Assembly (NCBI RefSeq): GCF_000024205.1
Contig: NC_013216.1
Span: forward strand, 2,666,001-2,730,000
Reading direction: 5' to 3'
Length of the DNA: 64,000 nt
Origin: Desulfofarcimen acetoxidans DSM 771
GTDB lineage: Bacteria; Bacillota; Desulfotomaculia; Desulfotomaculales; Desulfofarciminaceae
Notes under the pieces: generated by a model
Databases searched by the model: none
What the model was told of the DNA's origin: nothing
What the model saw: the letters and a program-made list of their open reading frames with translations, nothing else
Translations under genes and position numbers: made by a program
In this document: positions 833 through 25,889 of the stretch, piece after piece
Layout: each line of letters begins with the position of its first letter
Position numbering within the stretch: position 1 is the stretch's first letter

Positions 833-1558
833 TTAATTGTCCTGCTCAGAAGGAGCATTACTTATATTCATACTCCTATTTCCGGTTCCTGCTGTTGTGT
901 CTGGTACATTATTAGTTTTATGGTTTTCATCGTTGTTGTTAGGATCACTATGGTCAGAAGGAGCATGACCAACATTCATAGTCCCATTTCCGGTTTCTAC
1001 TGTTGTATCTGGCACATTATTAGTTTTAGGGTTTTCATCGTTGTTGTTGAGATTCTCCTTATCCGTATCATAATCATTAGAAGTCTTTCCGGTCAGTGAC
1101 CTAAACGGATATCCTTCCGGTGGCTGGCCTTCCCAAACTCGACTTTTAAACTCATCTTCATAATACGAAGTAAATTCTACATTATCTATATCTTTCCCGT
1201 CTGTAATCTGCAGGTTCTCATAGTTTGGATTTTCTCCTTCATATGGATTTTTCTCTTCCTCCGGATCGAAGTATTCTGGAAAACGGCCGCTATCTACATG
1301 TCTATAATCATCTGGGTGTGGTTTTATAGGCGAATAATCTTCTTTAGGTTTCCCACTTCCTCTTCCTGCCCAACGCTTATATGCCATATAAGTAAGGCCC
1401 ATGTTTCTGGCTGTTCTCAGCATTCTTGTTGGATCTACGTGTTTTTCTTTTGCTGTATTAAATGTCAGCGTGTCTGTAATCATTTCTACGACTTTTTTTC
1501 TATAGAAAAAGGCTCCGAAAAATATTACCGTTAATATTATCATTGCAAAACCTACCAT
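833..1558 (-). CDS. membrane-anchored hydrophilic protein, last gene of the tcp-like operon
   Basis: 241 aa. A single N-terminal membrane segment (about residues 3-20) is followed by a long hydrophilic, Asn/Asp/Pro-rich tail. The C-terminus holds two tandem copies of a roughly 35-residue unit (about 172-207 and 208-241), each starting NNNDEN and containing KTNNVPDTT. The two DNA copies are clearly related (about 840-920 and 950-1035), so this is a recent duplication. Its start overlaps the stop of the TcpH-like gene by one base, which implies translational coupling. It could be a variable exported or coupling accessory factor; I do not recognise the family. Confidence 0.75.
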   Translation of the reverse strand: MVGFAMIILTVIFFGAFFYRKKVVEMITDTLTFNTAKEKHVDPTRMLRTARNMGLTYMAYKRWAGRGSGKPKEDYSPIKPHPDDYRHVDSGRFPEYFDPEEEKNPYEGENPNYENLQITDGKDIDNVEFTSYYEDEFKSRVWEGQPPEGYPFRSLTGKTSNDYDTDKENLNNNDENPKTNNVPDTTVETGNGTMNVGHAPSDHSDPNNNDENHKTNNVPDTTAGTGNRSMNISNAPSEQDN

Positions 1559-3003
1559 TATTTCAACACCGCCTCAACAAAAGCTGTTCCTACACTTAAT
1601 ACTAACGATAGGTATAAGCCATAAATCATTTTTACCATAAAAGCTCCAAGCAAATATTTGAAATATTTGCTTGAAATTGCCCATCCTTGTACAGGTATCA
1701 TTAATGCAAATAAAAAAAATGGTAGAACTAAAAGCATCGCTGCCATTATTACTTGGCTTAGAATTATGTACAGTCCGATTGTTCCCGTAAATAATAACAA
1801 GCCTATTGCCGGTAAAAGTGTAAATAATGCTGTTGTAACGTGATCTGTTGGCGACGATGCAGCCATTCCAACCATTGTTCCATTATGTTTGCCATGTTTT
1901 ATTTGCTCTGTTCCTTGTAGTGTTATTATTGATTTAAAAGTCGTAACGTCCGGCCTGGCTAATACTTCAACTACATCATCATTACATTTTCCGGTTGTGG
2001 CAAGATATAATGTATCTATGCGCATTCCGGCTACTACTTTGCTTTTATCAGGAAAGTTGGATTTATCCATTAAATTACATTCCGATTCTGTAAGTTTCAA
2101 ATCGTTTTCATCACAAGTTCCGAACATGGCTATCGCCCATGGGTCGGCAACTATTACACTCCATACTGATTGGCCAAAGGCAATTAATCCTTTATCTATT
2201 GGATCTGTTGCGTTAATATCTTGATTTGCATTTGTGTATTCGCCAACGGCGCCGAGGAAAACTCCGGTTATACCGTCTGTTGCTTGTGAAAAATCTGTTA
2301 TTACTTTTTCAGCATTGGCGGTAAAGAAAAATACGCTGCCAATTGCTAATACCGCTATAATTAATGCGCTTACTACTGACATCAATTCACGTTTTAAAAT
2401 CCAGTAGACTGAGTATATCATTAAAAAAATCGAACCCCAGGATATAAGTAAGTATGTCAAATCTGTATCGGCCTGAAATATTTTTTTTACACCTTCCGAT
2501 ATCCAACCAACCATTCCGGATACAATATCAGTATGAAATGACACTACACATATGTTAATTGATATTCTGGTTATTGATTTGGTTATGAAGAATATTATAT
2601 TTGCTATTGCATCTACTGCGTTTGATGCGCCTTTTTCTGCCATTGAGGAGAAGCCCCAACCACTTTCCGGTGAAGCATGATTAAATGTCCATCGATTCAT
2701 GGGCCAGTTTTGCCATATCGAGTTCTTTGGATCAGCAATTTCTCCAAGACCTACTATGGCAGCACCGGTGCCGGCAGTTAGTATTGCAAACGGACCGCTT
2801 ACAGCCAATCCCATTGGTGCATTGGCTGTAATGCCTAATCCTATAGGTTCAAATAAATTACCCTCTCTATTTTTCTCAGAATCTATATCGCCAACCAAAT
2901 TATTATTTATCGAACTTTCATCACCAATCATGGCATATGCAGATTGCACATAGCTAAATATGATGAACAAGATGACTATGATTGAAAGGTTTTTTTTACT
3001 CAT
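1558..3003 (-). CDS. TcpH/TrbL/VirB6-like polytopic conjugation membrane protein
   Basis: 481 aa. An N-terminal signal-like segment (about residues 5-24) is followed by at least six hydrophobic segments (about 130-150, 190-225, 245-260, 385-440, 450-475). This is the layout of the inner-membrane channel scaffold of Gram-positive type IV secretion (TcpH in pCW3, Orf15 in Tn916, related to VirB6). It overlaps the VirB4 gene by 8 bases and the downstream gene by 1, so it sits in a tightly coupled operon. A CDENDLKLTESECN loop with paired Cys lies between membrane segments. The assignment rests on position, size and topology rather than a diagnostic motif. Confidence 0.75.
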   Translation of the reverse strand: MSKKNLSIIVILFIIFSYVQSAYAMIGDESSINNNLVGDIDSEKNREGNLFEPIGLGITANAPMGLAVSGPFAILTAGTGAAIVGLGEIADPKNSIWQNWPMNRWTFNHASPESGWGFSSMAEKGASNAVDAIANIIFFITKSITRISINICVVSFHTDIVSGMVGWISEGVKKIFQADTDLTYLLISWGSIFLMIYSVYWILKRELMSVVSALIIAVLAIGSVFFFTANAEKVITDFSQATDGITGVFLGAVGEYTNANQDINATDPIDKGLIAFGQSVWSVIVADPWAIAMFGTCDENDLKLTESECNLMDKSNFPDKSKVVAGMRIDTLYLATTGKCNDDVVEVLARPDVTTFKSIITLQGTEQIKHGKHNGTMVGMAASSPTDHVTTALFTLLPAIGLLLFTGTIGLYIILSQVIMAAMLLVLPFFLFALMIPVQGWAISSKYFKYLLGAFMVKMIYGLYLSLVLSVGTAFVEAVLK

Positions 3004-5374
3004 TTTGCGCTACCTTCGGAGATGTATCAAATAAATGCAGCAAGTATTTGGGTCTGGGATCAATATAGACTTGTGATATGCGGCCAAAGGCATCTCTCAT
3101 CACACACCAACCGCTTTCAAGTGCGGGAAATGCTGATGTTAGGCTGTTTTCTTCTGTGTCAGCTCCCAGAATTTCCATGTTGGCCTTAATTTCTGTTTTA
3201 TCCTCCGCTCTGAAGCAAAATTTATAATTTATATTGTTTTTAATTGATTGGAGATCCTTTATGTCTGTTGTATTCTGCGTAATCAGAATCGGAATTGTTC
3301 CAAAAGAACGGGCTGACATACGTATTAGTTCATCCAATAACCGGCGTCCTTCTGATATGTTTGCCAACATCCAACTTTCATCAAATACTTCTACTTTTAC
3401 AACATCTTTCGGTAATGAGAAAGCGACTTCTCTGGCCATTGCTGATGCTAAATAAAGCAATCCCAGTCCTTGTCGTTCATTTTCCGTAATTCGGCCTAAG
3501 TTCAAGTTTTCTGCTGTTCTGGGCAATGGTAATCCTTGCAAATTAACTACTGTAGCACGGGCTATTTCTTTTACGCCACCGATACCGAACACCAAGTGCC
3601 CGAGACTGCTGTTTTTTATGCTTTCCATTAGTAACGCACACTGGCCGGATTCCTGTTTAACCGGTTCGTGCTGCTCATTTTCCGACATTTGTTTTAATAT
3701 TTCCAACGTGGTATTTAAATTTCTTTTTTCAGGTTCCATATTTCCCGTTGTTTCTACAGCTTTACTAACAGCAACACGTCTGGTATCGTTGTCATCGCGC
3801 AGATTTAAGACTATGCTTAAATAATCCAAAACGTAGCTTTTGGCTTGTCTTTCATCTTTCGAGAGCATAAACGGGTTTATTGGTTCATTAGCACCAGGAC
3901 ATAGGTTTATTTTCTTAATTGGAAAAATTTTTTCCAGTACAGCATACTCGTTATTCTTAGGGTCAACGATAAATAAATAGGCACCGGCCAAATATGCAAG
4001 GTATATTAGTAATTTGATAGTTAAACTTTTTCCACTGCCTAACGCACCGCTGATAAACATGGCATTTGAACGGTTCAACTCTTTTGCTGCATATCCAGGT
4101 TTCCAAAAAACCGGTGCGGCATTTGACCACCCAATAAAAAAGCCTTTTTCGTCACCAACGTCCATGGATATTGTTGGACCTGATGCTGATATGAATCCAG
4201 GATCGCATTCAATTAACGGCGAAGCCCTTAGCGCACCAGGAAGAAATGAATAAAAACATTTACACTGATCGCCCATCGGTCTTACGGCTCTATAACCCGA
4301 AGATGAGTATCTTTCCATAAGTCTTTTTGCAGAAGCTCTCATATCTTTTATTTCTTTTGCAGCTACTGCCATTACTACTGACATAGACGCAAGAGGTTGT
4401 CCAGCAGATATTTTCCCTTCCAAATGTCTGCCTTCGCTTATGGCATATTCTTCATCTGTTGACGGATCTTCGTCACCTCTGGACTTTTCCTTTAATTGTC
4501 CTTTGAGATAACCTTTTCTGCTTGTTACTTTTTTTTGTGCTTTATGTGGCTTTATTATTTCAAAGTGTACTACTGCATCCACTGCCGTTCTCATTGCCTC
4601 TAAGGAGGCAAGCCACTCAGCCCCCACCTCTGGTAATAGTTTTGGCAGATCAGGAAAGGTGATGAAGGTTTGATGATGTTTTTCGTCACTGCCATTTGTT
4701 ATTGTTATATATGATGTCTGCTCATTGATCAAACAACCATCTGAAAATGCTGAAACTATTGCCGGCGTTAATCTACCGGCTTCACGTGAAGGTAAAGGTG
4801 GCGGTAATTCTCCTATTCTTTTTGTATTACGTCTAATTATGAAGTCTATATCTGAAAATCCTGCTTTACCGTCAATGCTTGATGAGATTCTTCTATAAAG
4901 TTCTTCTTCTCTTTCCATCACTTCTCTGATTTTTTGCTCATTTAGCACCCATTTTTCAGCGCTAGTAAATGCGCTTATTATTACTTCCACATATTCGCGT
5001 GTATATTCACGCCAGTTATTTGGCTCTTCTATTGCAGTACTTATTTGTAATACTAAGTATCTGCGACGGTTTCTTGCTCCACTTGCCAAGGCTGTGCGCA
5101 CCGAACCGGCATGATTAAAAGCCTCCTTTGTAAATACTGCGTCTGCATCGGTAAGATACTCTTTTTCATTCAAGCGCATTTCCTCGCATAACAACAATAT
5201 TTGGCCCTTGCCTTCCAGTCCCCATAGTAGTTGTTCAAAGTTTCTGATTACAACTTCTCTGTCCGTTATAGGTAAATTATTAAATGGTCTGCCACGAAGC
5301 TTATATATTGCATATGCTTCTCCTTTTTCGTTGAAAATTACATTATTTTTAAAGGCTATTAACGGAAACTTCAT
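2996..5374 (-). CDS. VirB4/TcpF-type conjugation ATPase
   Basis: 792 aa, the usual length for TcpF/Orf16/VirB4 ATPases that power type IV secretion at the inner membrane. Walker A is GALGSGKS (near residue 443) and Walker B is VEVFDE (near residue 665). A later ILITQNTTD stretch corresponds to the sensor region of this family. The N-terminal 400 residues form the VirB4 interaction domain. It starts directly after the TcpE stop (TAA then ATG) with GGAGGTGATTG as ribosome binding site. Frame and motifs look intact. Gene order matches the tcpC-D-E-F-H order of clostridial pCW3-type plasmids, as known from the literature. Confidence 0.93.
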   Translation of the reverse strand: MKFPLIAFKNNVIFNEKGEAYAIYKLRGRPFNNLPITDREVVIRNFEQLLWGLEGKGQILLLCEEMRLNEKEYLTDADAVFTKEAFNHAGSVRTALASGARNRRRYLVLQISTAIEEPNNWREYTREYVEVIISAFTSAEKWVLNEQKIREVMEREEELYRRISSSIDGKAGFSDIDFIIRRNTKRIGELPPPLPSREAGRLTPAIVSAFSDGCLINEQTSYITITNGSDEKHHQTFITFPDLPKLLPEVGAEWLASLEAMRTAVDAVVHFEIIKPHKAQKKVTSRKGYLKGQLKEKSRGDEDPSTDEEYAISEGRHLEGKISAGQPLASMSVVMAVAAKEIKDMRASAKRLMERYSSSGYRAVRPMGDQCKCFYSFLPGALRASPLIECDPGFISASGPTISMDVGDEKGFFIGWSNAAPVFWKPGYAAKELNRSNAMFISGALGSGKSLTIKLLIYLAYLAGAYLFIVDPKNNEYAVLEKIFPIKKINLCPGANEPINPFMLSKDERQAKSYVLDYLSIVLNLRDDNDTRRVAVSKAVETTGNMEPEKRNLNTTLEILKQMSENEQHEPVKQESGQCALLMESIKNSSLGHLVFGIGGVKEIARATVVNLQGLPLPRTAENLNLGRITENERQGLGLLYLASAMAREVAFSLPKDVVKVEVFDESWMLANISEGRRLLDELIRMSARSFGTIPILITQNTTDIKDLQSIKNNINYKFCFRAEDKTEIKANMEILGADTEENSLTSAFPALESGWCVMRDAFGRISQVYIDPRPKYLLHLFDTSPKVAQNE

Positions 5375-5752
5375 TTATTCAATCACCTCCGGCAATCTCC
5401 AATCCGCACGGTATCTTTTTAATAGTTTTATTTTTTTACCCATAAGATTAGTTGTTTTATGTCTAAAAATATATGCCAATATATCCTTAAAGAAAATCGG
5501 CATATATTTTCCCCGTAAATCAAACTGTGACAACATCCATGAGCAGATAGCGGATAATATTATTGTTGTCATAAATGGGTGTCTAGCACCAAATATGTTG
5601 GTTATAGGGTATAGCGGAATCATAATAACTACAGTCATTATTATATTTTCGAGCGGAATAGGCCTTGGCAGTGACTTGCCAAAAAAGTCATGCACTTTAA
5701 AGTTTATTTTAAACAAATCTTTGTAACTATTAAATGTCCTAATGTTACTCAT
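5375..5752 (-). CDS. TcpE-family conjugal transfer membrane protein
   Basis: 125 aa with two closely spaced membrane segments (about 32-52 and 58-76) and a basic C-terminal tail containing DWRLPEVIE. These are features of TcpE (Orf17 of Tn916), a small membrane partner of the conjugation channel. It is preceded by GGAGGTGT and abuts the VirB4 gene. Neighbouring genes are the TcpD-like gene upstream, across a terminator hairpin, and VirB4 downstream. Confidence 0.8.
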   Translation of the reverse strand: MSNIRTFNSYKDLFKINFKVHDFFGKSLPRPIPLENIIMTVVIMIPLYPITNIFGARHPFMTTIILSAICSWMLSQFDLRGKYMPIFFKDILAYIFRHKTTNLMGKKIKLLKRYRADWRLPEVIE

Positions 5753-5801: not shown

Positions 5802-6092
5802 TTAATCACCGAAAATAAAGTTTGTAATTGCCTCTCCCACTGATTTCATTGTACTTGCCTGGGTTATAAATATTAAAATCGCTCCGACTAAACCCACGAG
5901 TACTGCCGGTACAATCTCACGTTTAAAAAATAAAATAGTTGCCGAACCCAGTACTGCAATGGATATCATTGTTGCCATTAGATCTTTGATGTCATCGGCA
6001 CCCTGTTTAATGTCATATGCAGCAGCAATGCCTGGAGTTGCTACAATTACTATTAAAGCCAGTATTACAATCATTATCGTATTTTTTTTCAA
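5802..6092 (-). CDS. TcpD-like small membrane protein (pilin-like topology)
   Basis: 96 aa. An N-terminal signal-type segment (about residues 5-25, ending ATPGIAAA), then a short hydrophilic stretch and two membrane segments (about 38-55 and 64-82). This is the topology of TcpD and of VirB2/TrbC-type pilins. Start is TTG at 6092 after GGGGG. It lies 15 bases downstream of TcpC. A strong hairpin directly after it would give this gene more transcript than those downstream, as expected for a structural subunit. Confidence 0.7.
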   Translation of the reverse strand: MKKNTIMIVILALIVIVATPGIAAAYDIKQGADDIKDLMATMISIAVLGSATILFFKREIVPAVLVGLVGAILIFITQASTMKSVGEAITNFIFGD

Positions 6093-6107: not shown

Positions 6108-7019
6108 TTATTCTGGCAAACTACCCAAATCTTCAATTAAGTAACTACCACGTACAGCTTGTACTTTTATATAGATTATTTGTGTTATCTTTTCGATTCC
6201 TGCCGTAGATACTGTAACTCGCACACAAGCTTTTGTTGGTTTTTCACTATCTGTTTTAATTTCATCAATTGAAAGCAAATTCCACCCGTTAATGGGTTGA
6301 ATATTAGAACCGGACATAATGAAATTACTTAGTGCTTGTCCGGTGAAATACATGCTCATAAACTGGTTAATGAAGGTTGCGAAATCAGGTGTTACTACTC
6401 CGTCATATTGTTTTGGTTGTGATATTTCACCTTTTTTATTATTGTTGCTAACAATGACTGGCAAACCTTTTATAACCGGTTGATTGTTTATTACTGTGAC
6501 CGGAACTTCAACAAACAATAAATAGTTTTGCCACCCTATTGCTGGCAGCTGTATATCATACTGCGAATCTTTAATTTTTACCAAATCATCTCTTGTGACA
6601 GGTATCAACGATGATGGTACATTAGTATTCCCTTCAACCGGCGATAACCTGCGTACATGCAATAATATTTTCACCCTATAATCTCTTGAATTTTTACTTT
6701 CAGATGCTAGTAAAGATGATGACATTACTTCTTGGATACCGACAGGAGCAATTATTGACGATGTCTTATTTAAGAATGTCCCTAGTCTGCTATTGTATTC
6801 GTTATTATTGCCATTGAAGGTCGCCCACTCTGTAGCGAAAGCTTTTGCGGTATCTCTTACGTTAGTAATTACTTGCTCGTTTTGTTCAGTCATTGCGTTT
6901 TTTGCAACTTGACTGACTTTATTAACAATGTTAACGCTGCGTATAGAAGTTATGACTACAATAATAATTAATAACCAAAGTAATCCGGCAGCAGTCCAAC
7001 GATATATCAATCTACGCAT
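6108..7019 (-). CDS. TcpC-family conjugation protein
   Basis: 303 aa with one N-terminal membrane anchor (about 8-28) and an extracytoplasmic domain with two NTF2-like folds typical of TcpC (Orf13 of Tn916, VirB8-like). It contributes to the conjugation channel outside the membrane. The ATG overlaps the stop codon of the upstream gene (TAATG), so translation is probably coupled. The reading frame is intact. The later part (about residues 205-300) carries the FATFINQFMSMYFTG region characteristic of the second domain. Confidence 0.8.
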   Translation of the reverse strand: MRRLIYRWTAAGLLWLLIIIVVITSIRSVNIVNKVSQVAKNAMTEQNEQVITNVRDTAKAFATEWATFNGNNNEYNSRLGTFLNKTSSIIAPVGIQEVMSSSLLASESKNSRDYRVKILLHVRRLSPVEGNTNVPSSLIPVTRDDLVKIKDSQYDIQLPAIGWQNYLLFVEVPVTVINNQPVIKGLPVIVSNNNKKGEISQPKQYDGVVTPDFATFINQFMSMYFTGQALSNFIMSGSNIQPINGWNLLSIDEIKTDSEKPTKACVRVTVSTAGIEKITQIIYIKVQAVRGSYLIEDLGSLPE

Positions 7020-7512
7020 TAAACGCCGCCCTCCCCTATTAACTCACGGGTTTGGTTAAGTGCTTGATTGAATTCTTCACGCGTTAACCAGTTGTTTACC
7101 GCAAAATACTGATCTACCAAATATTTCTTTTTTATTATCGGATTTGTTCGATATACTAAAATACGGTTACCTGAAATCCAACAAAGTTTGCCGTTAATTT
7201 TTTTTGCCGTTTGATCATCTATGCCACTTAAGCGCCATGTTTCGCTATTTATTCCAAACGGTTTTTTTAATACATTTATAAATGATGGGATACTATCATA
7301 TAACGCTCCAGAACCTGTTACTTTTAGTCTTTTGCCTTCGTCTTCGCCTTCGCCTACATATTCGCAGCTGATACTGATATATGCACACATTATTGCCTCG
7401 CCTGATTTTTCCTTTTCCGGTGCGCTTCCGCCAGCTTTTATATTATCCATAAATGTGTCAATATTTTTTCTTAGAATTGATGCGCTCTCAATATAACAAT
7501 TGTCCCATCCTA

Positions 7513-8795
7513 GTAGAGCAATTCTTAATTATCATTGAACCACAAATCGGCATGGTATATAATTTCCTATAATACATAACAGGTGGGGAGACCAAACTAT
7601 GCCATTCATAAGTCAAAGAGCAAAATTAGATTTGACAACAGAAGAAATAAATAGATTAGAAAAAATTATACATTCAAGAACAGAAAGTGTGAGTCATATT
7701 GAACGGGCTAAAATGTTTCTCTTGTATCATCAAGGAGAAACAATAGCTTCAATTGGTAGAATATTAGAGACTAACCGTGCAAAAGTAGAACGACATATAG
7801 ATAAAATTTTACAATTTGGCTTAGATATAGCACTCAATGATCTTCCTCGTTCAGGCAGGCCGGATACAATAACCAAAGAAGATAAAGCGTGGCTTGTTTC
7901 TCTTGCTTGCCAAAAACCTAAGGAATTTGGATATAGCTATGAATTATGGACAACAGATTTATTAGCCAAACATGCACGAAATCATTGTGTAGAAAATGGC
8001 CATCCAACCCTGCAAAATCTAGCAAAAGGTACAGTATCAAAAATACTTTCAGCAAACAAAGTTAAGCCACATAAAATTAAATATTACTTGGAAAAAAGGG
8101 ATCCAGAATTTGAACAAAAAATGGCTAACGTGTTATATGTCTATAAAGAAGTTGAAATGGTATCAAAAAATGATGAACAATCAATGTATGCTTATATATC
8201 ATATGATGAAAAACCCGGTATTCAAGCTATAGAAAATATTGCTCCGGATCTTTCTCCTTCTCCTGGAACGTATTCATGTCTTGCTCGTGATTATGAATAT
8301 GTTCGCCATGGTACACTTAGTCTCATGGCCGGTATTGATTTGGTAACAGGTCATATCTTAGCTCAAGTAGAAGACCGCCATCGTAGTATTGAGTTTGTAG
8401 AGTTTCTAAAAATGATAAGTGAGTACTACAAAGATATAGAGAAAATAGTAATTATATTGGACAACCACTCCGCTCATATTTCAAAAGAAACAAGGGCTTA
8501 TCTTAGTACTGTCCCAAATCGTTTTGAATTTGTTTTTACACCAAAACATGGATCCTGGTTGAACTTAATTGAATCATTTTTTGGCAAAATGGCTAAATCA
8601 ATGCTGAGGGCTATTAGGGTAAAAACTAAAGAAGAATTAAAAGATAGAATTTACAAATATATAAAAGAAATTAATGATTGTCCTACTGTTTACCGCTGGA
8701 AGTACAAAATGGATGATATTGAAATAATTTAAATTATTAGTAGAAATTATATTATTTAACTAGCTTATTGATATGTTAATTAGGAATCGTTCTAC
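7513..8795 (+). mobile_element. IS630-family element, copy A, intact
   Basis: 1283 bp flanked by TA (7511-7512 and 8796-8797). Imperfect terminal inverted repeats: GTAGAGCAATTCTTAATTA at the left and TAATTAGGAATCGTTCTAC at the right. Copy B at 24607-25889 has exactly the same length and encodes an identical protein, so one of the two moved very recently. Confidence 0.95.
7599..8732 (+). CDS. IS630-family transposase (copy A)
   Basis: 377 aa, full length. N-terminal helix-turn-helix region (about 10-75), then the DDE domain: D in ISYDEKPG (about 205), DN in VIILDNHSAH (about 289), E in GSWLNLIESFFGK (about 327). It catalyses cut-and-paste movement into TA sites. Ribosome binding site GGTGGGG precedes the ATG. 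No frameshift, so it is likely active. Identical at protein level to copy B on the other strand at 24670-25803. Confidence 0.96.
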   Translation: MPFISQRAKLDLTTEEINRLEKIIHSRTESVSHIERAKMFLLYHQGETIASIGRILETNRAKVERHIDKILQFGLDIALNDLPRSGRPDTITKEDKAWLVSLACQKPKEFGYSYELWTTDLLAKHARNHCVENGHPTLQNLAKGTVSKILSANKVKPHKIKYYLEKRDPEFEQKMANVLYVYKEVEMVSKNDEQSMYAYISYDEKPGIQAIENIAPDLSPSPGTYSCLARDYEYVRHGTLSLMAGIDLVTGHILAQVEDRHRSIEFVEFLKMISEYYKDIEKIVIILDNHSAHISKETRAYLSTVPNRFEFVFTPKHGSWLNLIESFFGKMAKSMLRAIRVKTKEELKDRIYKYIKEINDCPTVYRWKYKMDDIEII

Positions 8796-9442
8796 TAGTA
8801 ACCCCTGGTATATTTGCCATCCGCCAACTCCTTGGCGTAGTTCATCTGCTATACTATTATTTTTCGTTATGCACCATTTTGTATTCCAGTTTTTGCTAAA
8901 CTCTTTTCTGATTACCTGTAGATTCTCTGTTTTTTCTGCTTTATACACACCAAACAATATATTTACAAAATCAGTTATGTCTGTGAGATTGTATTTGTAG
9001 ATTATTCCGGTTTTGATCGTTTTACCAAATGCATACCAATTGGGTGTCTCAATTGCATATTCTTGAGGGGTTACCTCTCTGGCCTTAAATATCTCCTCAT
9101 TTTGCCCGGCCCAGCTTTCAAGACTTCCTTCACAGCTTACTGTTTTGCCCATATTACTAATCAGTATTTGTTTTATGTTTTCATACTCCGGAATTATTTC
9201 AGTAAATTTTTTTGATTTTATTAGCTGCCAGGTATAATTATTGTCTCTTACATAAATAGAACCGTATATGACGACCATATTTCTTTCGGAATCGTAGTTT
9301 ACTATTTTACCGAAAATACGTGAATGCCCATAAAACATACTGTAGTTTTCTTCAGCATAAACTGCCTTCGCTGATGGTAAAAAACTTAATATTGTAATTG
9401 CAATTAACACTAGAATAGTTTTTCTTATTGTTGATCATCTCC

Positions 9443-9841
9443 TTATGGAGTTATTGTTGTGCTTGGTGCTGTTGTTTTTTGCTCATTATTTTCGGTACTT
9501 TTTTCAGGAGGATTAATTATCTCCTGTGTCCCTACTCCTGCTTCACCTCCCACATACATCATTACACTGTGACCAAATTGTGCCAGTTTGCCCGGCTCAG
9601 AATTATACAATAGTATTCCGGCAATTATTATAACGGCAAATATATAGACAATATTTCGCTTCATGAAAAGCTCTACTATAAAAGCTATTACTACCGCTAT
9701 TACTACTAAAACTTTTGCCAAAGTAAGGATGTTAATCGCACCTTTGGCAAAATCAAAACCTCCGGCTGCAAAAGCATTCGGGACGGTGAATAATAAAATT
9801 ACTGGTATAAGGACAGGTAAAAGAAATTTTTTCAATAACAC
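9443..9841 (-). CDS. small secreted or membrane protein at the head of the visible tcp-like operon
   Basis: 132 aa. A signal peptide (about 1-25, ending NAFA), two membrane segments (about 40-60 and 66-85), then a hydrophilic Thr/Pro-rich tail. The topology resembles the TcpD-like protein at 5802-6092, so the operon has two pilin-like genes. Start is GTG at 9841, with TTG two codons later as an alternative; AGGAAGGGG precedes both. The next gene follows within about 25 bases. Confidence 0.65.
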   Translation of the reverse strand: MLLKKFLLPVLIPVILLFTVPNAFAAGGFDFAKGAINILTLAKVLVVIAVVIAFIVELFMKRNIVYIFAVIIIAGILLYNSEPGKLAQFGHSVMMYVGGEAGVGTQEIINPPEKSTENNEQKTTAPSTTITP

Positions 9842-9960
9842 AACCCCTTCCTGATCTATTTACAAAGCATTAACTATTTTCCTTGATTTTGTAACACCCC
9901 TCTCTTTTCTTTTCCACCACTATCTCCATTCTTTATCACCCAGAAATGTTACCGGAATGT

Positions 9961-11560
9961 GCCGTAAAGCCCCTGCCTTCAGGTCTTATCTTTACCCATA
10001 AGTCCTTGAGTAAGATAGAATGAATCTGCTTATGCTATACGCAGAAAATGTGTGATAAATTACCCAAATCGGTTATGATGCTTAAATATGGTAATGGACG
10101 CATTGTCAAAAATTTTCTAAAATTGTCTCATGAATAATTTACCTGTATCTCTCAAACCAACAAATCAATCAATGCTTTGGGCAACTAAAGAGTGCGGTAC
10201 GGCTAACTTTGGTGATACCCGTCTCACTCATCGACTGGTTTCACTGGCTGCAAGCCTTATTGAGCATCCAGAAAAATCTTTGCCTGAAGCACTTGGTCAG
10301 TGGAGCGATGTCAAGGCTGCCTATCGTTTCTTTGATAACGAGAAAGTAACTGTTGAAGCCATATATGATGTACACAGAAAGGCCACTATAGAAAAAATCA
10401 AGAATCAACCGGTGGTTTTGGCCATCCAAGATACCACCATTTTCAACTATACCTTACATCGAGAAACAAAAGGGTTGGGACCTATCGGTCAAGCGGGTCT
10501 TTCCGGCTTCTTTCTACATTCTTGTCTTGCTGCATCCGCTGAAGGAGTTCCATTAGGAATCTTGGCCCATCGCTTATGGGTACGTTCACTAGAACCCAAG
10601 GAGAAAACACATAAAAAGCGACCTATCGAAGACAAGGAAAGTGTTCGCTGGATTGATGTTACCCGGGAAGTAGCCGAAACGGTTTCTCCCTTTACCAAAG
10701 TAGTAATGGTGGGTGACAGAGAAAGTGATATTTTTGACCTCTTTCTCCTAGCCAGCGCTAATCAGTATGATATCTTAGTCCGTGCTGCTTGGAACCGCCG
10801 CATTGATCAGTCGCATGATTACCTATGGCCTGTTGTTGAAAGCGCCCCGGTATTGGGCCGTACGGTTATCAATATACCACGTGCCGATAAGCGCCCAGAA
10901 CGAGAGGCTGTTGTTCTTACCTTACAGGCTGCCACTGTTACCTTAAAACCACCGAAACATCGGGGAAAAGAAAAATTAGCTGCACCTACTCTTAATGCCC
11001 TACTTGTTCAGGAACAATCGCCACCCGAAGGAGAAAAGCCAATAGAGTGGATGCTGTTAACTACCCTGCCTGTTACTACCATTGATGATGCACTGCAATG
11101 CTTAACCTGGTATACCTACCGCTGGCGGATTGAGCGGTATCATTATATTTTGAAAAGCGGTTGCCAAGTAGAAAAACTTCAATTAGAAACTAAAGACCGT
11201 CTTATGCGTGCTATTGCCGTGTATAGTATGGTAGCTTCTCAATTACTTTGGCTTACTTATCAAGCCAGGCAAACTCCTGATGCACCTTGCACAATTGTTC
11301 TTAGTAACAGTGAATGGGGTGCCCTTTACGCTGCTATTCATAAGATAACTATTTTACCCGATAACCCGCCAAACTTACAAACAGCAGTACTTTGGATTGC
11401 CAAGCTTGGCGGTTTTCTCGGACGTAAAAGGGACGGTTACCCCGGCCTTAAGGTTCTCTGGCGTGGCTTCCGGCGTCTTCAAGATCTGACCACTATGTGG
11501 GATCTTTTTCATCCATCTGATACTTGTGGGTAATGGTAAGGGCTTTAGCCATGGGGAAAA
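9961..11560 (+). mobile_element. IS4-family element, IS50-like group
   Basis: The left end CCGTAAAGCCCCTGCCTTCAG (9962 on) is matched by the inverted right end of a second, truncated copy at 14796-14933. The right end of this copy is degenerate (near 11545-11560), so the outer boundary there is approximate. It lies upstream of the conjugation operon and separates it from whatever came before. Confidence 0.75.
10130..11533 (+). CDS. IS4/Tn5-type transposase
   Basis: 467 aa, close to the Tn5 transposase length. Catalytic residues: D in AIQDTTIFN (about 103), D in MVGDRESDIFD (about 197), and a Y-x2-R-x3-E-x6-K signature in the stretch TYRWRIERYHYILK (about 330-345). An N-terminal DNA-binding domain with ANFGDTRLTHR and a C-terminal dimerisation domain fit Tn5-like enzymes. 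The frame is intact. No strong ribosome binding site is visible before the ATG at 10130. Confidence 0.92.
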   Translation: MNNLPVSLKPTNQSMLWATKECGTANFGDTRLTHRLVSLAASLIEHPEKSLPEALGQWSDVKAAYRFFDNEKVTVEAIYDVHRKATIEKIKNQPVVLAIQDTTIFNYTLHRETKGLGPIGQAGLSGFFLHSCLAASAEGVPLGILAHRLWVRSLEPKEKTHKKRPIEDKESVRWIDVTREVAETVSPFTKVVMVGDRESDIFDLFLLASANQYDILVRAAWNRRIDQSHDYLWPVVESAPVLGRTVINIPRADKRPEREAVVLTLQAATVTLKPPKHRGKEKLAAPTLNALLVQEQSPPEGEKPIEWMLLTTLPVTTIDDALQCLTWYTYRWRIERYHYILKSGCQVEKLQLETKDRLMRAIAVYSMVASQLLWLTYQARQTPDAPCTIVLSNSEWGALYAAIHKITILPDNPPNLQTAVLWIAKLGGFLGRKRDGYPGLKVLWRGFRRLQDLTTMWDLFHPSDTCG

Positions 11561-12040: not shown

Positions 12041-14034
12041 GTCGCATAATTAACCCCAGGTTTCGCACTAAGGGATTATTAAACTGGGAATCACTGCCAA
12101 ACCTTATTTTCTTAAATTATCCTTAAACCATTTCTCAATATGATAAGAAAAATTGATTGCTGAATTAATAACCTCTATTAATTCAAGTGGATGTGGTAAG
12201 TTAAACAGGTTAACCAATACATCAATGGTATTAGGAATATTCGTCCCATTCCAATGGCTTATACCAATAGGCTGCAACCTTTGTTCTGAGATAGTTAGGT
12301 CGCCAAGTTCTTTCTGTAATTTTTGGGGAGACATCTTTTTGCCATTTTTAGCTAACAGCCAGGCTGCTAAATTAAGCACAAGCATAGCCAATACTTTTAA
12401 AAAGCAATAGGCATCTACTCTTTCAGGATTGCGAAGGAATATTTGTTGTAAATCAAGAGAACCCTTCAAAAACCTAAAACTAATTTCGATATCATTCCTA
12501 CCACGATAGCGGGTAAGCAGTTCGTTAGCATCAACCTTCTCTTTGTCGTGGTTGGTTAAAAGCACAAAGATACCATCGGTTTTCTCAAGCTCTGGAATTA
12601 TAGCTTCATCTTTTGACCAGGACATAACAATGGCATTATGTTGATTTAGTTTAATTGTTACATTAAACAGCCTACGCATATCAGGCTGCCCTTTAAAAAT
12701 ATTATCTACTACTTTTTCACAGGCTTCCTTCGTGATTAAGTTACGTTTGTTGAGCTTGCCATTGAGTTCTACTAATGCATCTTCTGTGCTGGTTATACGC
12801 TTTTGACGACGCTCTTGTTCCTTAGGTTTTTTGTTTAAATCGCAATAAATAACCGCCCTTATGGTATGGGTCGCAAATATTCGCTTACTTTTTTTGAGTT
12901 GCTTTTTGTTCTTACTACCCTCTGAGGGAGGATCAAGTTTTACCTTAAACGTATATTTTGTCTCTAATGCCTCGTAGTGTCTGGATAGATTTCTTTCTAT
13001 TTCTTTCTTAGAGCGATAGTCAATAGTAGCAAAATCATCTTTTTTAGCCTCATTTAATTGCTCTAAGACCCAATTTTTCGATAGTTCATCCTTGAGTGGG
13101 CCTATAAAAAAGGCCTTTTTGTTGCTATTAGTAAGCATCAAATGCATATTATCTTGGGTTAGGATACCACGATCAATAATCATCTCAAATTCTTGGTCAT
13201 CGGTAATCTCTTTAACCTTCTCGAATGAACGCTCAAAAGTCGTGCCACCTTGAACATTACCGGGATCAATTGATGATGTTACCGGCAAAGATGCACCAGA
13301 GGCTATAGTAAGATTGAGGATTAATTGTTTTAAACCCGGTAGACCACCGTACCCGAATTGAACTTTATCGTTATCCTCCATAACACCAGAGACTGGAACG
13401 GAAGATGTATCATTGTAAAAAGTGTTAAGTGGGATTCCAAATCTCTTGGATGCTGATAAAACAATATCCTGCAATACATTAGCCATATATTTTGCATTTG
13501 AGTTTATAGCGTCAAGGGCTCTACCCATTTTGTCATCATTAAATTTTTCGGATGGTATACCAAGTATTGTTTCGACTTGCCAGTTTTCACAAGCTTCTTC
13601 AAATTTATATAAACGGGTGAGATCTTTATTTCTGCCCAGCATGTCGCCAACCATTATTTCACATGCCAAACCAGTACTTACCCGACATTTAGAACCGTTG
13701 GCTCTGTCTTCACGTAGATGCTCATAAGTAACATATTCTTCGCCTATAAAGTTGTCAATTATTTTACCGATGCCCAGGCTTCTTGCTAAAAAGACACCGA
13801 TAAGTACTGCACCTGAGGGATCTGCCTTCGGAACTTCTACTTTTAATTCGGGCATTATCTTCATCAATATTTCGGGGGGTAATTTGGCTAGTTGTTCTAA
13901 AATAGGTTGTAAGTCCATGACGATCCCTCACTAATATTTATTCTTATTAGTGATAATTCGACACAAAAAACAGAAGTCCTTCCAGTTCATGGATCTCTTA
14001 TTTTTATGGTTGTAATTAATATTACTTATGCACC
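12041..14034 (-). mobile_element. IS1634-type element
   Basis: The ends carry related inverted termini: GTCGCATAATTAA at 12041 and, read inward from the right, GGTGCATAAGTAAT ending at about 14034. A remnant of the same right end is found at 34804-34893, which confirms the boundary. Contains one transposase gene. Confidence 0.75.
12104..13918 (-). CDS. IS1634-family transposase
   Basis: 604 aa, typical for IS1634/IS4-superfamily enzymes. The N-terminal domain resembles DUF4277 (VLIGVFLARSLGIGKIIDNF). A catalytic Asp lies in TFYNDTSSVPVSG (about residue 168) and another in MIIDRGILTQDN. The Y-x2-R-x3-E-x6-K motif is in RYRGRNDIEISFRFLK (about 465-480). The frame is complete. It is a different lineage from the IS1634-like transposase at 32022-33734. 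Confidence 0.93.
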   Translation of the reverse strand: MDLQPILEQLAKLPPEILMKIMPELKVEVPKADPSGAVLIGVFLARSLGIGKIIDNFIGEEYVTYEHLREDRANGSKCRVSTGLACEIMVGDMLGRNKDLTRLYKFEEACENWQVETILGIPSEKFNDDKMGRALDAINSNAKYMANVLQDIVLSASKRFGIPLNTFYNDTSSVPVSGVMEDNDKVQFGYGGLPGLKQLILNLTIASGASLPVTSSIDPGNVQGGTTFERSFEKVKEITDDQEFEMIIDRGILTQDNMHLMLTNSNKKAFFIGPLKDELSKNWVLEQLNEAKKDDFATIDYRSKKEIERNLSRHYEALETKYTFKVKLDPPSEGSKNKKQLKKSKRIFATHTIRAVIYCDLNKKPKEQERRQKRITSTEDALVELNGKLNKRNLITKEACEKVVDNIFKGQPDMRRLFNVTIKLNQHNAIVMSWSKDEAIIPELEKTDGIFVLLTNHDKEKVDANELLTRYRGRNDIEISFRFLKGSLDLQQIFLRNPERVDAYCFLKVLAMLVLNLAAWLLAKNGKKMSPQKLQKELGDLTISEQRLQPIGISHWNGTNIPNTIDVLVNLFNLPHPLELIEVINSAINFSYHIEKWFKDNLRK

Positions 14035-14795: not shown

Positions 14796-14933
14796 TACAG
14801 TTACCCCGGCCTTAAGGTTCTCTGGCGTGGCTTCCGGCGTCTTCAAGATCTGACCACTATGTGGAATCTTTTTCATCCATCTGGTACTTGTGGATAATGG
14901 TAAGGGCTGAAGCCAGGGACTTTACGGGCCGTC
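14796..14933 (+). mobile_element. 3' remnant of a second IS4/IS50-like element
   Basis: Nearly identical to 11430-11545, covering the last transposase codons and ending in a good inverted terminus (CTGAAGCCAGGGACTTTACGG). The left part is missing. The stop codon of the YvlD-like gene lies within this terminus. Upstream (14530-14795) is sequence I cannot assign. Confidence 0.85.
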
Positions 14934-16572: not shown

Positions 16573-17595
16573 CTAAACAATTTCTATATCCAGCTTCGGC
16601 CTGTTATACTCACCAATTTCATCTGTTTCCTTAATAACTATCTTATCAATCAGCAAGCTAATATTTGTATTCGTAAGGGCTTTCTTCTGAATAATTTCTT
16701 TCAATACATCTATGCTTTTAATAATATTTTCCTTTTCATATTCGTTCGACTCCTCAAGCTTCTCCAATTCGGAGAGCTGTTCTTCAAGTTTGGTCAGTTC
16801 CCTGTTTGCGTCCCCCGATAGCTCCAGGAACGGTTTCTCATTGATGAACCCCTGGGCCAGCTGCCTGGAGTATCCGTTAATCCCTTCTTCCTTTTTATGT
16901 ATCTGAATTCTCACTTTTTCTGTCTGATTAACGTAGTCCCTTTTTTATTCAGCCTATCTTCAATAGTTTTATCAACTTCACTAAGCCTTAACCCGGCAGT
17001 GTAAAGAAGCACTTTCAAATTAGCCATAATAATTTCGTCCAGATCTTCCTCCATAATCCTATGGCTACCGCAGTAATTCGAGCCATATTTATGGAAGGTC
17101 GAACATACATAAGTAATGTTATTCCCTGATTTTGTTTTGCCGTTTCTGGCGACAAAGCCCTTTTTACAACTATCACATTTTAATATCCCGGCATATTTAT
17201 GAATTTTTTGATTCCCGGCCATTACCTTTTCATTAAACCTTTTTTCGAATATTTGTTGGGTCATGTTGAAGTCGTCTACATTAATAATAGCGGGCATAAA
17301 ATTAGGGTGAACAAATTGATCTTCCTTGTCCACCCTGACTTTCTTACCTTTCATTTTGCTCACCTTTGTAACACTGCAACGGAGAGTACCAATATAGGCA
17401 TCATTTCTCAATACTCTCTTTACACTTGTCGCATACCACAAATCCTTCTGAGTCCAATTCGGCTTCCACCCAAATCCGAACTTTTTCATTTCATGAACTG
17501 ATGGGGTTTCATATCCATTTTTATTTAGATACTGTGATATTTTATTGCAGCCGTAGCCGTCCAGGTACATTTTAAATATGAGCCTATTGCATAAG
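16573..17595 (-). pseudogene. large serine recombinase, C-terminal part, frameshifted
   Basis: Two overlapping frames (16911-17570 and 16573-16914) together give the recombinase domain, a zinc beta-ribbon (CDSCKKGF...C) and the coiled-coil tail of a phage-type large serine integrase. The catalytic resolvase domain with the nucleophilic Ser is absent: sequence homologous to the recombinase begins abruptly ([11 protein letters not shown]) right at the break in threonine dehydratase. The two frames meet near 16925, downstream of an A6GGG run. Non-functional. A second C-terminal relic lies at 23186-23569. Confidence 0.9.
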
Positions 17596-18145
17596 CCACA
17601 CCTGAAATTAGTCCACCGCCACCGATTGGCACAATGACAGCATCAACCCCTGGAAGTTGTTCTAAAAGCTCTAAGCCAATAGTTCCCTGTCCTGCGATAA
17701 CATTCTCATCGTCGAAAGGATGAATGAAGGTGTAGTCCTTTTCTTCCTTTAATTGCAATGCTTTTTGACAAGCATCATCATAAACACCTTCAACTAAACA
17801 AACCTCTGCACCGTAGTGTTTGGTTGCCTCCACCTTGGAAATCGGAGCACCGTCTGGTAGACAGATTAAAGATTTAATGCCGTTTTTGGTTGCTGCCAAA
17901 ACAACGCCCTGTGCATGGTTTCCAGCAGAACAAGCAATAACACCCTTTACTTTTTCCTCCTCGCTTAATTGGAAGATTTTATAGCATGCACCGCGTACCT
18001 TAAAGGAGCCGGTCACCTGTAAATTTTCAGTTTTTAAATAAATTTAACTTTCCGGATTAACATTTGGCCCATAAATTAAATCAGTCTGTCGGACAACATT
18101 TTTCAGAACGTATAAAGCATGATAAATTCTGTCTAAAGTTAACAT
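17590..18145 (-). pseudogene. threonine dehydratase (ilvA/tdcB type), nonsense-mutated and truncated
   Basis: This would encode PLP-dependent threonine ammonia-lyase, the first step to isoleucine. Start ATG at 18145 after GAGGAAATT. The PLP lysine motif TGSFKVRGA, the SAGNHAQG loop and the [10 protein letters not shown] phosphate-binding loop are all present. Codon 33 is TAA where the frame NPES(K)xYLKTEN expects Lys, a point nonsense mutation. After GVAYAI the gene is replaced by the serine recombinase relic, so the C-terminal half is lost. Its T-box leader is still present upstream. Confidence 0.9.
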
Positions 18146-23569: not shown

Positions 23570-24606
23570 CGCATCACGGAAGCTCCCTATACATTACTCA
23601 CCAGGAAATCCATGCTTGCCACGGGCAACGTCGCGGATTCACGAGGGGTATTAGTAATCGGCTTTCCTATTTAATTGCTGAAAGCAGAAATGTCTCCCAT
23701 TTTTATCATGTCAAGGTCGTTATTATCGATAAGCCGTTGTATCGGCATCGTAAAGTTTTGCAAAAATCGCGAAAATCCATAACATCCCGATAACCAACAC
23801 TACATAAACTTTATGGCAGTAAATATCTTAATGAAATTTAGAAAGGGGATTATCTTCCATAGGGCGAATATATAAATGGAATATTTGCTCTGTTTCTGAA
23901 ATACTCCGAGATTGAAGATATTCTTTACGACTATTACTCAAGTCTCATTAATAAGAAATTTATGAACAGGCTTCTTACCTGCCCCGTTTATTTATAGAGT
24001 GCAATATGATCCAGAATTTAAAAAATGCTAACACTGGAGGAATTATAATAGCAAAAATATTTATCCAGATAGAGAAAGCTGAAGATGTTGTTACTTCATT
24101 TAAAATAGTTGGTAAGCTAAAAGCACTTTACTATTTTGGCGTAAATTATTCCAATTATGTCACAGAAACAGAAAAATTTCTTTTTGACTTCCTAGTATAT
24201 CAAAATAGGTTTCCAATTTTCTTTTACTTTGAAGCAGACAATGATTTTAAAAATATTGTAGGAAATTTTAATGCAAATCAAATAGATTACACCTTAGACC
24301 GCTTAGCCGATAAGTCTTGGGTATTCTCTATAAAAGAAGGGTTACAGAAGTATAATATCCCTTTATTTCGAGTTCGGGTAGAAAATACTGCCTCTTTGAA
24401 AGTTGTGTTAAATGAAGCATTTTGTTTAGCTTCGTCAAACCAAAGATTGTTTATTTCATTCGGGGATAACTTAACTTACTACACCAAAAAAGTTAAGAAC
24501 TGGCAAAAGAGGATCCTTGACAGATCTATTCTGAATCTTTCTTTAGAATTTCCAACTACATTTATAAAAGTATGCCACGATGGACAGGGCTTTCACTTAT
24601 ATACTA

Positions 24607-25889
24607 GTAGAACGATTCCTAATTAACATATCAATAAGCTAGTTAAATAATATAATTTCTACTAATAATTTAAATTATTTCAATATCATCCATTTTGTAC
24701 TTCCAGCGGTAAACAGTAGGACAATCATTAATTTCTTTTATATATTTGTAAATTCTATCTTTTAATTCTTCTTTAGTTTTTACCCTAATAGCCCTCAGCA
24801 TTGATTTAGCCATTTTGCCAAAAAATGATTCAATTAAGTTCAACCAGGATCCATGTTTTGGTGTAAAAACAAATTCAAAACGATTTGGGACAGTACTAAG
24901 ATAAGCCCTTGTTTCTTTTGAAATATGAGCGGAGTGGTTGTCCAATATAATTACTATTTTCTCTATATCTTTGTAGTACTCACTTATCATTTTTAGAAAC
25001 TCTACAAACTCAATACTACGATGGCGGTCTTCTACTTGAGCTAAGATATGACCTGTTACCAAATCAATACCGGCCATGAGACTAAGTGTACCATGGCGAA
25101 CATATTCATAATCACGAGCAAGACATGAATACGTTCCAGGAGAAGGAGAAAGATCCGGAGCAATATTTTCTATAGCTTGAATACCGGGTTTTTCATCATA
25201 TGATATATAAGCATACATTGATTGTTCATCATTTTTTGATACCATTTCAACTTCTTTATAGACATATAACACGTTAGCCATTTTTTGTTCAAATTCTGGA
25301 TCCCTTTTTTCCAAGTAATATTTAATTTTATGTGGCTTAACTTTGTTTGCTGAAAGTATTTTTGATACTGTACCTTTTGCTAGATTTTGCAGGGTTGGAT
25401 GGCCATTTTCTACACAATGATTTCGTGCATGTTTGGCTAATAAATCTGTTGTCCATAATTCATAGCTATATCCAAATTCCTTAGGTTTTTGGCAAGCAAG
25501 AGAAACAAGCCACGCTTTATCTTCTTTGGTTATTGTATCCGGCCTGCCTGAACGAGGAAGATCATTGAGTGCTATATCTAAGCCAAATTGTAAAATTTTA
25601 TCTATATGTCGTTCTACTTTTGCACGGTTAGTCTCTAATATTCTACCAATTGAAGCTATTGTTTCTCCTTGATGATACAAGAGAAACATTTTAGCCCGTT
25701 CAATATGACTCACACTTTCTGTTCTTGAATGTATAATTTTTTCTAATCTATTTATTTCTTCTGTTGTCAAATCTAATTTTGCTCTTTGACTTATGAATGG
25801 CATAGTTTGGTCTCCCCACCTGTTATGTATTATAGGAAATTATATACCATGCCGATTTGTGGTTCAATGATAATTAAGAATTGCTCTAC
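24607..25889 (-). mobile_element. IS630-family element, copy B, intact
   Basis: 1283 bp in the opposite orientation to copy A, with the same terminal repeats and TA on both sides (24605-24606 and 25890-25891). The encoded protein is identical to that of copy A. Confidence 0.95.
24670..25803 (-). CDS. IS630-family transposase (copy B)
   Basis: 377 aa, the same sequence as copy A at 7599-8732: helix-turn-helix region, then the DDE domain (YDEKPG, LDNHSAH, NLIESFFGK). Full length with GGTGGGG before the ATG. Two identical intact copies in 17 kb, both in TA sites inside genes, point to recent activity. Confidence 0.96.
   Translation of the reverse strand: MPFISQRAKLDLTTEEINRLEKIIHSRTESVSHIERAKMFLLYHQGETIASIGRILETNRAKVERHIDKILQFGLDIALNDLPRSGRPDTITKEDKAWLVSLACQKPKEFGYSYELWTTDLLAKHARNHCVENGHPTLQNLAKGTVSKILSANKVKPHKIKYYLEKRDPEFEQKMANVLYVYKEVEMVSKNDEQSMYAYISYDEKPGIQAIENIAPDLSPSPGTYSCLARDYEYVRHGTLSLMAGIDLVTGHILAQVEDRHRSIEFVEFLKMISEYYKDIEKIVIILDNHSAHISKETRAYLSTVPNRFEFVFTPKHGSWLNLIESFFGKMAKSMLRAIRVKTKEELKDRIYKYIKEINDCPTVYRWKYKMDDIEII

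Follow-up and report, generated by a model that had tools for sequence, protein, structure and literature searches.

Within the 64-kb window analysed from the chromosome of Desulfofarcimen acetoxidans DSM 771, a minus-strand operon was identified in the order of a 132-aa membrane protein gene (9443-9841), a gene split into two halves (8799-9410 and 7019-7510), tcpC (6108-7019), a 96-aa small membrane protein gene (5802-6092), tcpE (5375-5752), a tcpF/VirB4-type ATPase gene (2996-5374) and a gene for a 481-aa polytopic membrane protein in the VirB6/TcpH position (1558-3003). The VirB6-like gene was followed by genes for a 241-aa protein, an SLT/M23 peptidoglycan hydrolase and a ParA-like protein, and this order was kept in relatives. 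The two halves of the split gene were separated by an intact insertion sequence (IS) of the IS630 family, 1283 bp in length, on the plus strand at 7513-8795.

Gene content of the tcp-type operon

The product of tcpC matched PF12642 (E 1e-43) and that of tcpE matched PF12648 (E 4e-27); within the MPF_FA class, TcpC resembles VirB8 and TcpE is most likely the VirB3 component (PMC12857230). The ATPase gene matched PF12846 (E 8e-46), was present in a single copy in the genome (one match) and had ATPase_TcpF as its closest NCBIfam model, with a score below the cut-off of that model. The genes for TcpC, TcpE and VirB4/TcpF thus lay next to each other on one strand, as in tcp-type MPF_FA systems. The 481-aa protein was 48-53% identical to syntenic proteins, the 96-aa protein had syntenic homologues at loci L040, L041 and L042, and the 132-aa protein gene immediately upstream of the split gene was syntenic with L040 10972-11409. 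A conjugative role of the operon is suggested by these sequence matches and is put no more strongly because the relaxase search, which covered PF02486 and PF03432, gave no match in the genome to the MobT-type relaxase PF02486 and only a sub-threshold match to PF03432, 1.1 Mb from the operon.

In comparison to the tcp locus of pCW3 from Clostridium perfringens, also of MPF_FA type, both have genes for TcpC (VirB8), a small membrane protein, TcpE (VirB3) and TcpF (VirB4), with VirB6-like and peptidoglycan hydrolase genes in the same operon. However, the present operon is chromosomal with a gene order of the Desulfotomaculum/Moorella type, its genome has VirD4-family coupling proteins rather than TcpA, an additional secreted protein of about 370 aa is encoded before TcpC (the gene interrupted here) and a ParA-like ATPase, which is fused to GGDEF in relatives, is found at the end of the operon. 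The gene after the hydrolase in the tcp operons of relatives (L041 17500-19326 and L043 17568-19526) encodes a ParA/BcsQ-like ATPase fused to GGDEF, while the D. acetoxidans gene (L023 8609-10543) encodes a double ParA-like protein without GGDEF. From its domain composition, the fusion might possibly link the transfer system to c-di-GMP. A second, orphan tcpC (49% identical) was located 1.24 Mb from the operon (L022 9187-14858; G000:C1:1433186-1438857) together with genes for a lipoprotein and a VirD4-like coupling protein. This locus was considered as a possible location of an uninterrupted paralogue and rejected, as no relative of the split gene was present there.

IS630-family element and its genomic copies

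The termini of the IS630 element were GTAGAGCAATTCTTAATTA and, inverted, GTAGAACGATTCCTAATTA, with 16 of the first 20 positions matching; the terminal inverted repeats were imperfect further in. A TA dinucleotide flanked the element on both sides, at 7511-7512 (CTA|IS) and 8796-8797 (IS|TAG). The transposase gene (7599-8732, plus strand) encodes 377 aa with a match to PF13358 (DDE_3, E 2e-23) and a score of 222 bits against the NCBIfam IS630 model NF033545, for which the cut-off is 100. These matches and the motif positions identify an IS630-type DDE transposase, and its catalytic residues, judged from the sequence, are likely D247, D288 and E325.

A total of 12 full-length copies of the 1283-bp element were found in the 4.55-Mb genome, the interrupting copy and eleven elsewhere. 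Since the eleven further copies have the same ends, the boundaries at 7513-8795 are secure, and the original prediction had placed the element exactly to the base. Seven of the 12 copies were identical in sequence and the remaining ones differed by 1 to 8 bases; in the copy at L010, the transposase gene is interrupted by a stop. The near-identity of the copies suggests that the element has moved recently. All 12 copies lay in CTAG (CTA|IS|TAG), a context shared by only 80 of the 5675 TA dinucleotides in the window (1.4%), and CTAG is the IS630 target named in the title of a 1991 paper by Tenzen and Ohtsubo that PMC2170065 cites. An IS630-model DDE transposase, TA duplication and CTAG preference are common to IS630 of Shigella, IS630/Tc1/mariner elements including ISY100 and the present element, which is nevertheless distinct with its 1283 bp and 377-aa transposase, and it was at best 79% identical to DNA in the nearest relative searched.

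Several copies break other genes or open frames of the same genome. A second identical copy in the window (24607-25889, minus strand) interrupts the end of ORF 24006-24626, which would span about 245 codons across the empty site and has no Pfam family. Another copy (L005; G000:C1:1965099-1969381) interrupts a frame of some 754 codons which resembles a phage tail or tip protein. At L066 10956-13256 (G000:C1:2636956-2639256) a copy lies between the C-terminal part of topoisomerase III and an unrelated P-loop gene fragment; the two sides do not join, which suggests either a rearrangement between IS copies or a topB gene that was already truncated.

Interrupted gene and intact homologues

The 5′ half of the split gene (8799-9410) comprises 204 codons from a GTG at 9410, and the 3′ half (7019-7510) comprises 163 codons and a stop that overlaps the start of tcpC. 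Once one TA is counted the halves are in register, giving 204 + 1 + 163 = 368 residues. The same joined length, with a signal peptide, had been predicted originally; a signal peptide was recognised here by inspection. The figure of 368 residues depends on the start codon because the frame is open for 8 codons upstream of the GTG and the homologues point to initiation 6 codons further upstream. The homologue of Desulfotomaculum copahuensis starts with MRK, which aligned here with ATA AGA AAA (9428 downwards), 10 bases after AAGGAG. From this alignment, the gene probably did not originally begin with the GTG at 9410, and the homologous start is likely the ATA at 9428-9426. It is possible that the rare AUA is used, that the start codon was changed by mutation or that the GTG serves.

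In separate searches, the 5′ half (best E approximately 1e-60) and the 3′ half (approximately 1e-53) matched consecutive parts of one ORF in other genomes, so a chance match to a single gene can be set aside. Both halves matched the same single ORF in G033 (367 aa), G034 (363 aa), G016 (398 aa), G052 (413 aa) and G069. These uninterrupted homologues are single proteins of 363-413 aa from several genomes of the same order, encoded directly before tcpC, and in four genomes the gene order with tcpC directly downstream was the same. Pairwise alignments with four intact proteins showed exactly one homologue residue between the two half-matches in three of them; the fourth, from D. copahuensis, had three residues, as the ends were trimmed in the local alignment. 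At the junction, G034 has GVGGWQIYEGLVGLDNCYI where the split gene has GVGGWQIYQGL-(L)-GWDNCYI. A scan of contigs with an alignment of the intact homologues named D. copahuensis, Desulfoscipio geothermicus and Moorella mulderi as carriers, while the scan with the 5′ half alone, the search of a plasmid collection with both halves and the search of G001, the only genome of the same family among those covered, gave no match. The closest intact homologues were only 44-59% identical to the split protein.

No family matching the split protein was present in Pfam or NCBIfam, and a PDB profile search gave nothing significant. The structure predicted for the intact D. copahuensis homologue from a three-sequence alignment was poor (mean pLDDT 43, pTM 0.32), and the two five-stranded segments in the model may serve as a lead only.

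Origin and consequences of the interruption

Overall, it is almost certain that an autonomous IS630-family element split one gene of a tcp-type (MPF_FA) operon at CTAG with duplication of TA. The boundaries of the element, the duplicated TA, the CTAG preference, the collinearity with intact homologues and the operon synteny were all observed directly. The element would have transposed into a CTAG within this type IV secretion operon. The TA would thereby have been duplicated and the gene cut in two, which codes for an envelope protein that is secreted, has about 370 residues and is made just before TcpC. The element would also have multiplied to the 12 nearly identical copies of the genome. 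Both halves would still be open because the insertion is recent.

That two genuine genes flank the IS, with the two-gene annotation correct, is extremely improbable. Both halves contain a codon that could serve as a start (GTG at 9410 and ATG at 7450), but no clear ribosome-binding sequence was seen upstream of the ATG, and each homologue is one ORF at the equivalent place in the operon and matches across the junction. A naturally two-gene form was sought among the homologues examined and was not found; the sole short one, from G005 (225 aa; L028 1396-2073), is truncated by unrelated DNA and is another broken copy, read from its sequence as a case in which the same gene was lost independently. 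The uninterrupted homologues which the original prediction had proposed to look for therefore exist, and its claims that the IS splits a secreted tcp-operon gene and that annotation as two genes would be wrong hold, given the signal peptide, the position directly before tcpC and the collinear single ORFs. Hardly any weight can be given either to a reversible switch, in which precise excision of the IS would restore the gene and toggle transfer. The frame is indeed open across the empty site, as had been predicted, but this is unremarkable because any clean insertion with a duplicated TA gives the same result, and other copies of the IS also have frames open across their empty sites (754, 526, 245 and 194 codons). 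With ISY100, the transposase cleaves two bases inward from the 5′ ends, and after religation the donor is left with TATATA, 4 bp more than the empty site (PMC2170065). If the present IS behaves like ISY100 at excision, as the analogy would suggest, this scar would shift the frame, so the exact in-frame removal of the original prediction stands for the joined frame and is not expected as an event. In addition, the site was found only once in the genome, with neither an empty nor a scarred version elsewhere.

An IS-split gene is also compatible with the insertion being a small defect in a transfer module whose decay had already begun, with polarity irrelevant; this concerns the consequence only and is a real possibility, to which we give somewhat less than an even chance. 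The operon has a second IS630-type element close to its 3′ end (L023 11610-12681, approximately window -391 to 680), IS transposases are found at its upstream end (10130-11533 and 12104-13918), topB is reduced to its C-terminal part adjoining another copy of the same IS and the genome lacks a PF02486 match. Because of these other insertions and the truncated topB, the insertion at 7513-8795 may not decide the fate of the element. However, the genes for VirB4, TcpC, TcpE, the VirB6-like protein and the hydrolase are full length, VirD4-type coupling-protein genes are present elsewhere in the genome and relaxase families beyond PF02486 were covered in part only (PF03432). Disturbed transcription of all downstream conjugation genes, likewise part of the original prediction, would be a possible effect of the insertion. 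A search of 6900-10200 for terminator-like sites gave none on the operon strand, and sites resembling promoters, one of which (7693 to 7665) would read out of the left end of the IS, were as frequent as expected by chance.

With the gene split by the IS, the secreted protein would no longer be made whole and the transfer system would be impaired or dead in this strain; the 3′ half has the ATG at 7450, which is usable in principle. The constant place before tcpC suggests that the intact protein forms part of the transfer channel, outside the cell or on the side of the wall. Whether the interrupted gene represents an undescribed conserved family of secreted proteins, regularly encoded immediately ahead of tcpC in Desulfotomaculum/Moorella-type tcp operons and perhaps acting together with TcpC in crossing the cell wall, we consider evenly balanced. 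The interruption itself is an ordinary event that was correctly observed. For annotation, the two fragments become one pseudogene interrupted by an IS630 element. The locus also draws attention to an unnamed family of secreted proteins that accompanies tcpC in the transfer operons of Gram-positive bacteria, and to an IS630 element that has expanded recently and whose preference for CTAG is strict.

Other features in the window

The Tn5/IS4-type transposase gene at 10130-11533 has its end repeated near-identically 3.4 kb away (window 11440-11545 and 14799-14910), and the repeat at 14799-14910 is, by its sequence, the remnant of a second transposase copy. Finally, a large serine recombinase was found in two adjoining frames (16573-16914 and 16911-17570) which overlap a pyridoxal-phosphate enzyme fragment (17525-18016); both are probably decayed genes (window 16573-18016).
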